In this document: positions 13,806 to 15,321 of the stretch, piece after piece
How positions within the stretch are numbered: the first letter of the stretch is position 1
Layout: each line of letters starts with the position of its first letter
Assembly (NCBI GenBank): GCA_018057825.1
Contig: JAGPCY010000040.1
Location: forward strand, 1-64,000
Direction: 5' to 3'
Source: Kofleriaceae bacterium
GTDB lineage: Bacteria; Myxococcota_A; Polyangia; Haliangiales; Haliangiaceae
Length of the DNA stretch: 64,000 bases
Notes under the pieces: generated by a model
What the model saw: the letters and a program-made list of their open reading frames with translations, nothing else
Databases searched by the model: none
What the model was told of the DNA's origin: nothing
Position numbers and translations under genes: made by a program

Positions 13806-13948
13806 GCCGAGGCCGAGGCCGAAGCCGAGACCTAGTCCGAGTCCGAGTCCGAGTCCGAGTCCGAGACCGAGTCCGAGTCCGAGTCCGAGTCCGAGTCCGA
13901 GTCCGAGTCCGAGTCCGAGTCCGAGTCCGAGTCCGAGTCCGAGTCCGA
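13806..13948. repeat. hexanucleotide tract (CCGAGT/G/A)n, tract 1
   Basis: About 23 near-perfect copies of CCGAGN, mostly CCGAGT, starting at the ribD stop codon. Read on the minus strand it encodes dipeptide repeats (Asp-Ser or Arg-Thr). It separates ribD (plus) from the minus-strand tRNA-like region. Same family, in the opposite orientation, as tracts 2, 3 and 5. Confidence 0.95.
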
Positions 13949-13957
13949 TCGCGCGCG

Positions 13958-14022
13958 TTGGGGGTTCCGGATACCCGCCCGGTAGGAACCACCACCCCCG
14001 CGCATCACGCACCGGGTTCCTC
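13958..14022. repeat. single copy of the ~60-bp dispersed repeat
   Basis: This stretch (GGGGGTTCCGGATACCCGCC ... CACGCACCGGGTTC) matches the tandem units at 15454-15643. With those it brackets the tRNA-like genes and the gene at 14587-15321. Confidence 0.7.
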
Positions 14023-14032
14023 CATAAATAGT

Positions 14033-14065
14033 GAACCCCGAGGCTGTAGCCGAGCCTCGGGGTTC
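14033..14065. terminator. strong 13-bp hairpin, possible terminator of the tRNA-like transcript
   Basis: GAACCCCGAGGCT and AGCCTCGGGGTTC form a perfect 13-bp stem with loop GTAGCCG. It lies downstream (minus strand) of the permuted tRNA-like genes. No T-run follows in either direction, so it may be a processing barrier or part of the RNA rather than a classical intrinsic terminator. The palindrome CTGCGCAG occurs twice next to it (14069-14090). Confidence 0.5.
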
Positions 14066-14118
14066 GAACTGCGCAGAGTTCCCTGCGCAGGTGCCGGTTT
14101 CGCACGCCAACGACAGTT

Positions 14119-14279
14119 GCAGTCGCTCAGGTCTTCGTGCTCATGACTTTCCATTGGTCCAAGTCGCCAGGAGAGACACCGTCTCGGTCGGCGGCGGGCC
14201 TCGCGAGAGGTCCTGCCGACGCCAGACGTGGCGGCGACTGCCGGAGTCGAACCGGCATTCTTGAGCATGGGGCGACAGC
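14119..14279 (-). tRNA. circularly permuted tRNA-like gene Y (3' half upstream of 5' half)
   Basis: On the minus strand the order is: anticodon-stem 3' strand GCTCA (14266-14262), 5-nt variable loop AGAAT, T arm GCCGG-TTCGACT-CCGGC (14256-14240), acceptor 3' strand AGTCGCC (14239-14233), G73 and encoded CCA (to 14229). A 60-nt spacer follows, then acceptor 5' strand GGCGACT (14168-14162), TG at positions 8-9, a D arm with 3-bp stem GAC/GTC and GG in the loop (14159-14145), A26, and anticodon-stem 5' strand TGAGC (14143-14139). Rejoined, this is a complete class I cloverleaf with perfect 7-bp acceptor and 5-bp anticodon stems at exact spacing. A further 8-nt helix (GCGACTGC at 14126-14119 with GCTGTCGC at 14279-14272, one mismatch) would hold the open ends together. 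The anticodon is not resolved because the loop junction is unknown; no U33 is obvious. Confidence 0.55.
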
Positions 14280-14359
14280 GATCGAGATGGCGAGCTCGGC
14301 CTCGTGAGGTTGGGAGAGAGACTCAGTTTGCGTCAGCCTGACCAGACAGACCGCTCGCG

Positions 14360-14470
14360 CGGCCCGCGTCTACCAGTTTCGCCACGGGGGCAGGTTGCAC
14401 GGTGTGACCCGTCGGTGCTCCCGGGAGGACTCGAACCTCCACGCCTGGACGACTGCTCAGGGAGTTTGAA
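14360..14470 (-). tRNA. permuted tRNA-Leu-like gene X (3' half upstream of 5' half)
   Basis: On the minus strand a T arm GGAGG-TTCGAGT-CCTCC (14440-14424) is followed directly by acceptor 3' strand CGGGAGC and ACC (to 14414). After a 22-nt spacer come GCCCCCG (14391-14385), TG and GCGAAACTGGTAGACGC (14382-14366), which is the classical tRNA-Leu D arm. Acceptor pairing is 6 of 7 (one C-A mismatch). Upstream of the T arm a TTCAAAC loop followed by TCCCT would give a CAA (Leu) anticodon and a class II variable arm, but the 5' partner of the anticodon stem is not found after the D arm; AGGGA lies instead 18 nt before the loop. It has the same permuted order as Y, less completely resolved. Confidence 0.35.
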
Positions 14471-14586
14471 GCTGAGGCTCAGGTTGTCTCCCTCTCAGGA
14501 GCTGGATGGCCCTCCTTGGGCGGGACGATCGACGGGGTGGGGGCGCGCGGCGATCGCGGGTGAGGTTCGCGGCGTCAGGTCAGCCC

Positions 14587-15321
14587 TCACGGCGCGAACA
14601 GGTAGCTGAGGACCGCCTGGCCGATCTTCTGGTCCGGCGCCTCGATCGCGTTGGCCTGCTCGCGCGCGAACTTGACCGCGTTCGACAGCCGCTCGATGCG
14701 GGCCAGGAGCTGCTTCTTGCGCGGGGCGGGCAGGGCGCCAGAGTGCTTGACCGTGACCCACTGCCCGGCGATCACGTCCTCGGTGATGAGCTGGGTCTGG
14801 GCCGGGTGGTGTTCGGTGGCGTCGTACAGCACGATCGGTCGCTGCAGCTTCTTGGTCCGCTGCGTCGTCGACGGCTCGGTCCGGAACAGCCCGGTCGACG
14901 GATCGACCGACCAGTCGCTGCCGGGGTCGAGCTCGGCCATCTTGGCGACGAAGGTCGTCAGATCCGAGAGCTGCTTCTCGAGGAACAGGAGGTAGGTCGC
15001 GGGCGCGTCTTTGACCAGGACCCGGCCGTCGATCACGACGTCGGCCTTGGCCTGGCAGTTGGCCCAGTCCTTGGTCGCGGTGATGTCGAACAGCTCGGTC
15101 AAGATCGTCGCGACGCGGTCGAAGACCTCGGCCGCGTTGTGCTGGACCTTCTGCGACTCCGGCGGGTAGGTCTCGCCGTCCTCGTCGCGCGGCTGGTACG
15201 ACTTATGGAAGCCGTTCATGAGCGGCGGCTTCTGCGTCGCGTTGTGGAGCTCGGTGAACTCCGCGTACACGCGGGTCTTCAGGCCCTTCTCGATGGCCAG
15301 GATCTGGTTCAGTTTCGCCAT
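14587..15321 (-). CDS. conserved protein of unknown function (DUF7873-like)
   Basis: A 244-residue soluble protein. The ATG at 15321 is chosen because it begins a well-behaved sequence (MAKLNQILAIEKGLKTR) and the upstream frame only reads through dispersed repeats. It has a long helical N-terminal half with KSYQPRDEDGETYPPES and a C-terminal helical region. Similar proteins, annotated from memory as DUF7873, occur in actinobacteria, often near phage-tail-like genes, but I cannot confirm this. No signal peptide or membrane segment. It is transcribed toward the tRNA-like region. Confidence 0.65.
   Translation of the reverse strand: MAKLNQILAIEKGLKTRVYAEFTELHNATQKPPLMNGFHKSYQPRDEDGETYPPESQKVQHNAAEVFDRVATILTELFDITATKDWANCQAKADVVIDGRVLVKDAPATYLLFLEKQLSDLTTFVAKMAELDPGSDWSVDPSTGLFRTEPSTTQRTKKLQRPIVLYDATEHHPAQTQLITEDVIAGQWVTVKHSGALPAPRKKQLLARIERLSNAVKFAREQANAIEAPDQKIGQAVLSYLFAP

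Follow-up and report, generated by a model that had tools for sequence, protein, structure and literature searches.

A stretch of 64,000 nucleotides from a Kofleriaceae bacterium (contig JAGPCY010000040.1 of assembly GCA_018057825.1, hereafter the window) carries on its minus strand, at 14279-14119, the parts of a transfer RNA (tRNA) in permuted order. Comparison with related sequences shows that two permuted tRNA-like modules stand in tandem in a single structured RNA of ~460 nt, this unit being the second, and that the RNA travels with the gene of a protein family, DUF7873, through distant bacteria and phages. The unit is therefore neither a tRNA gene nor a decoder to be spliced, but one part of a larger RNA that mimics a tRNA. 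The conserved block (~14492 to 14028) is much larger than the unit first noted, and the original prediction, made from the window alone, had missed the DUF7873 gene as well as the other permuted unit, which lies immediately upstream (14440-14366).

Inspection of the sequence confirms that a tRNA 3' half lies before its 5' half, with the acceptor stem (7/7 pairs) and the anticodon stem (5/5) as counted in that prediction, an outer helix of 8 nt with one mismatch (7/8 pairs; here HX), and 60 nt after the CCA separating the halves (the joining segment, 14232-14169, is 64 nt long including G73-CCA). ARAGORN and Rfam made no calls on the unit region as it stands, and no intact tRNA was found flanking it. 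The parts of the unit (unit 2) and of the stem that prolongs it are as follows.

14280-14292, minus strand: 5' strand of a further helix, HY (CGCCA; z 8), and an ATC-GAYC-like motif (ATCGACC in alignment A3)
14272-14279, minus strand: HX 5' strand, GCTGTCGC (z 16; 7/8 pairs in the window)
14262-14266, minus strand: anticodon-stem 3' strand, GCTCA (z 12; helix 2 of A3)
14240-14256, minus strand: T arm, GCCGG-TTCGACT-CCGGC (descriptor, A3 and sequence)
14233-14239, minus strand: acceptor 3' strand, AGTCGCC (7/7 pairs with 14168-14162; covaries)
14169-14232, minus strand: GCCA (14232-14229), then a joining segment folding as its own hairpin
14162-14168, minus strand: acceptor 5' strand, GGCGACT (pairing and covariation)
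14145-14161, minus strand: positions 8-9 and D arm, TGGACCAATGGAAAGTC (D stem paired in 100% of A3)
14139-14143, minus strand: anticodon-stem 5' strand, TGAGC (covariation and sequence)
14119-14126, minus strand: HX 3' strand, GCGACTGC (covariation and sequence)
14105-14109, minus strand: HY 3' strand, TGGCG (covariation and sequence)

Conservation in relatives was one point on which the original prediction could have failed; relatives show compensatory change on a massive scale, and both the acceptor and the anticodon stems are compensated. With 501 bases of the region as query, BLAST found matches in 6/6 same-genus genomes and in several of the family. The same-genus loci, found by BLAST and not through pairing, have fully compensated acceptors (GGCGACT/AGTCGCC, GCTCGCT/AGCGAGC and GCCGGCT/AGCCGGC), as does a family member (GGTGTCT/AGACACC), and the joining segment of unit 2 is reduced to ~5-20 nt in the alignment of related genomes (<15 nt in many relatives). 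Covariation was tested over 56 loci by comparing the pairing of each locus's own strands with that of strands swapped between species (2000 permutations), without reliance on a single alignment. No permutation reached the observed pairing of the acceptors, anticodon stems, HX or HY, with z scores of 21 (acceptor 2), 19 (acceptor 1), 16 (HX), 12 (anticodon stem 2), 8 (HY) and 6 (anticodon stem 1); the acceptor and T-stem figures are inflated, as the loci, those of A3 included, were selected by an acceptor/T-stem descriptor, and independent evidence comes only from the remaining helices, HX, HY and the anticodon stems among them, from the loci of the same genus and from the controls given below. 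In A3, 90.6% of cells are paired (57.4% after shuffling), and the covariation score is 0.841 vs 0.212 for shuffled and at most 0.212 for slid alignments. When the halves were rejoined through an artificial 7-nt loop, ARAGORN called a tRNA in 56/56 loci for unit 2 and 55/56 for unit 1, compared with 15% and 21%, respectively, for halves rejoined across species and 0 in the genomic order. Acceptor sequence varies freely with pairing kept, which speaks for shape and not for aminoacylation identity.

A decayed tRNA array or chance is rejected by the conservation and the compensatory change. An artefact of two identical tandem tRNAs was also dismissed, there being no intact flanking tRNA and the acceptor sequences being unique; such tandem tRNAs do yield partial model matches (positions 35-119) in many genomes (e.g., L175, L179 and L181).

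Beyond the anticodon stem of unit 2 the exit path runs through an internal loop, HX, a second internal loop (ATCGACCG facing CTTAAACG) and HY, and no anticodon loop was seen in relatives. The original prediction rightly doubted that the product is a standard decoder. The extra helix that the original prediction placed beyond the anticodon stem does exist and covaries, but rather than holding a break together it is a stem of the larger RNA.

The RNA was sought downstream of DUF7873 in 101 loci from Myxococcota, actinomycetes, Ktedonobacteria and phages of diverse hosts, using a descriptor made of T arm, 7-nt strand, joining segment, complementary strand and D arm. The two-module layout recurs at almost all DUF7873 loci. 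By the descriptor, at least one module was present in 92/101 loci and at least two in 69, whereas the same descriptor matched 1/101 on the opposite strand, 3/102 upstream, 1/95 further downstream and 0/101 after shuffling. A covariance model of unit 2 (R1) recovered six of the nine apparent blanks, bringing the total to 98 loci. In 284 Myxococcota genomes, 15 match DUF7873, and all 13 full matches (13/13) adjoin an R1 match of >50 bits. The anatomy persists to 31-32% protein identity: the Klebsiella jumbo phage FBKp24 (31.5%) has both modules, 7/7 acceptors, ACCA in both units and an end hairpin with a GGTTA loop, and the GenBank "tRNA-Sup-TTA" of this phage (vB_KpM_FBKp24, L186 3015-3094) overlaps its unit 2. 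Vibrio phages have one clear module. Annotated records mostly leave several hundred unannotated bases after DUF7873, often within a tRNA array. The cassette adjoins ribD/nrdR in one relative (inverted with respect to the window) but not in the fetched flanks of others, and so moves as a unit.

Some loci depart from this arrangement. A Microcoleus phage (L060, 5050-5421) has what look like further T-arm and acceptor pieces within the joining segment, which may amount to a third module. Three genomes hold a divergent group of slightly longer DUF7873 proteins (L159, L160 and L161); L160 has a clear permuted tRNA-like sequence, and L159 and L161 have it in a less regular form. Permuted tRNA-like units also occur in two genomes with no DUF7873 or TROVE match (L176 1501-1626 and L178 1501-1626, both minus strand), and the L176 unit retains the ATCGACC motif.

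The partner gene lies directly upstream of the RNA.

14590-15318, minus strand: DUF7873 gene, core reading frame, with its stop at 14587

Its product belongs to Pfam PF25283 (E 4e-103, 344.9 bits vs a gathering score of 27), with relatives in Myxococcota, Streptomyces, Nonomuraea, Streptacidiphilus and Ktedonobacteria, in 73 phage records (Vibrio, Gordonia, Rhizobium, Klebsiella, Serratia, Arthrobacter, Rhodococcus, Pseudanabaena and Microcoleus) and in a viral-contig scan that gave 228. PHROG, NCBIfam and PADLOC hold no family for DUF7873, and a literature search, which did not extend to preprints and most subscription journals, found no paper naming it. The AlphaFold model is confident, with a predicted local distance difference test (pLDDT) score of 91.6.

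The whole RNA and its remaining parts are listed below; its 5' end is placed by conservation and its 3' end was set at the terminal hairpin.

14028-14492, minus strand: whole RNA, approximate ends, present in every same-genus genome and in part of the family
14462-14485, minus strand: 5' lead with a repeated YTNAR motif (AACCTGAGCCTCAGCTTCAAACTC), in nearly all relatives
14441-14450, minus strand: unit 1 anticodon-stem 3' strand and variable loop (z 6 over relatives)
14424-14440, minus strand: unit 1 T arm, GGAGG-TTCGAGT-CCTCC (descriptor, relatives)
14417-14423, minus strand: unit 1 acceptor 3' strand, CGGGAGC (6/7 pairs with 14391-14385)
14392-14416, minus strand: unit 1 joining segment, starting ACCG (median 9 nt in relatives)
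14366-14391, minus strand: unit 1 acceptor 5' strand GCCCCCG, TG and D arm, tRNA-Leu-like (descriptor, ARAGORN rejoining)
14305-14326, minus strand: middle hairpin element (CTGAG ... CTCA), recurrent in relatives, weak in the window
14069-14090, minus strand: hairpin CTGCGCAG-GGAACT-CTGCGCAG, kept in same-genus relatives
14033-14065, minus strand: terminal hairpin with a conserved GGNTA apical loop (GGCTA), then a T-rich stretch

The terminal hairpin with its GGNTA loop recurs in 42/54 relatives, where shuffling predicts 1.45, and so conserved an apical loop is more than an ordinary terminator would need. Pieces like the YTNAR motif of the lead recur in the middle and tail of the RNA; pairing of the lead with either is unsupported over the 56 loci (z 1.4 with the middle and 1.5 with the tail, control 1.8). 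That the lead encodes a short peptide (codons like AAG CTG AAA CTG) was considered and rejected: judged by eye, relatives do not share the reading frames, and start codons do not recur. Just past the 3' end of the RNA (~13830-13945, minus strand) is a long run of the hexamer GGACTC.

We consider, with a probability of about 0.62 and by analogy with known RNAs, that DUF7873 and the RNA form one ribonucleoprotein whose tRNA elbows act as tRNA mimics on tRNA-binding partners. Comparison shows that in each module the joining segment closes the acceptor stem and the anticodon stem leads out to the rest of the RNA, prolonged by HX and HY in unit 2, with the GGNTA-loop hairpin ending the molecule. 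That the protein binds this RNA is a guess from their adjacency. The two elbows (T loop against D loop) would dock on partners such as tRNA-maturation or modification enzymes, a ribonuclease or the ribosome, an action modelled on bacterial Y RNA, in which a permuted tRNA module docks PNPase to Ro60. In phages, as the cassette often sits inside tRNA arrays, it could protect, tune or decoy the tRNA pool during infection.

Several observations weigh against this ribonucleoprotein. Three DUF7873 loci (L051, L099 and L100) show no RNA with either the descriptor or R1, and L176 has an orphan unit without DUF7873. The YTNAR repeat of the lead and the GGNTA loop are left without explanation by the proposed model, and for DUF7873 neither a relative of solved structure nor a significant fold match in the PDB or viral libraries was found.

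The tRNA-like ends at the joints allow a different fate, in which bacterial RNase P and RNase Z might cleave the RNA into pieces held together by base pairing. At position 74 a C is present in 48/56 (unit 1) and 52/56 loci (unit 2), NCCA in 24/56 and 27/56, G1 in 47/56 and 50/56, and U at -1 in 28/56 and 39/56. Together with ACCA on both FBKp24 units, these frequencies favor a processed RNA, in which RNase P cuts before the acceptor 5' strands and RNase Z or exonucleases trim to NCCA, leaving three stem-held pieces with two tRNA-like 3' ends, as in two-piece transfer-messenger RNA (tmRNA); the ends may be CCA-added or even aminoacylated. Many joints are only 4-7 nt, though, some resembling stable tetraloops (ACTTCGG) and needing no cut, extended pairing can inhibit RNase P, the CCA of the units does not follow that of neighboring tRNAs (rho 0.19, p 0.48, n = 17), and the acceptor sequences lack synthetase identity, so that we regard processing as rather unlikely. 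Doubtful, too, is its more ambitious extension, where DUF7873 and the three-piece RNA cut by RNases P and Z would make a new ribonucleoprotein class, its two elbows and two tRNA-like 3' ends engaging the tRNA machinery or two ribosomal sites at once. The other candidates are weaker. A cis-regulatory 3' element of the DUF7873 mRNA, not a free RNA, would fit the same strand, the position directly downstream and the terminator-like hairpin at the end, but such an element would need neither this size nor two tRNA folds and a conserved terminal loop, and the tRNA-like ends suggest separate maturation; we think it very improbable.

Membership in the bacterial Y RNA class (YrlA), with Ro60/Rsr as partner, was also considered, given that YrlA, too, mimics a tRNA in circularly permuted form (PMC11472068); its D-, T- and acceptor-like arms sit on a basal stem, and it tethers PNPase to Rsr (PMC8394870). 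A permuted module on a stem is indeed what we found, and the host genome has a TROVE (Ro60/Rsr) gene, but that gene is on another contig and not next to the RNA, four phages with the RNA have no TROVE, and two modules in ~460 nt contrast with one in 90-150 nt, which makes membership improbable. The host TROVE gene (C80:34511-35398) lies inside a 27-tRNA array on a 59-kb contig (L005, G000:C80:27000-39000), where two tRNA-like genes in normal order, with ~60-90 nt between the anticodon-arm halves, go uncalled by ARAGORN (L005 minus ~6070-5800; acceptors GCAGACG/CGTCTGC and GCAGGTG/CACCTGC). Least credible is the proposal of the original prediction itself, that this is a permuted tRNA gene in a bacterium and that joining its halves gives a decoding tRNA. 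The 3' half is encoded upstream of the 5' half with complementary acceptor strands, and the rejoined halves fold as a tRNA, but the stem runs on from the anticodon stem through an internal loop into the conserved, covarying HX and HY without a 7-nt anticodon loop, the modules are usually paired and linked by conserved sequence, and the host has an ordinary tRNA set. Splicing is accordingly unsupported: Rfam has no match to a group I (permuted) or other intron, nor a splice motif, around the halves in 13980-14560 at E up to 10, and a new ligation route is not needed for a tandem pair of units with its own protein gene in which the supposed break is a stem of a bigger RNA. A replacement tmRNA was rejected, the host having an ordinary tmRNA elsewhere (contig C18).

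The RNA appears to represent an undescribed and widespread family that has a protein partner of its own and occurs in several phyla of bacteria as well as in phages of many hosts. No Rfam family matches it, and a literature search that did not reach preprints or most subscription journals gave no paper on RNAs of this permuted tRNA-like kind in phages. Permuted tRNA mimicry is thus not confined to Y RNA, the DUF7873 family gains a handle on its function, and some phage "tRNA" annotations may be wrong, as the FBKp24 tRNA-Sup-TTA suggests. The use of tRNA mimics by phages within tRNA arrays becomes a question testable in laboratory phages.

Among known RNAs, the closest is YrlA (Ro60/Rsr partner, PDB 6CU1), which is alike in its permuted tRNA-like module with D, T and acceptor arms, its exit on the anticodon side and a gene beside that of its protein. 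It differs in having a single module and Ro60 and PNPase as partners, whereas the RNA described here has two in tandem, DUF7873 as neighbor, joints with NCCA, G1 and U-1, and a GGNTA terminal hairpin. YrlA has reportedly been found in phages too. Two-piece (circularly permuted) tmRNA shares the 3' acceptor part upstream of the 5' part, a removable segment and tRNA-like ends, but the present RNA has complete D and anticodon stems and two modules; the best match to the Rfam tmRNA models is 12.8 bits against a cut-off of 84, and the G3-U70 alanine pair is absent (C3-G70 in unit 2, GGCGACT/AGTCGCC; a C-A mismatch there in unit 1). The large structured RNAs GOLLD and ROOL of phages and bacteria are often near tRNA genes; the present RNA is set apart from them by the lack of an Rfam match, its tRNA-like modules and its DUF7873 partner. 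Finally, the permuted tRNA genes of algae and archaea likewise encode the 3' half before the 5' half with the acceptor ends joined, but these yield a complete tRNA with an anticodon loop, whereas here there is none and the stem continues into the larger RNA.
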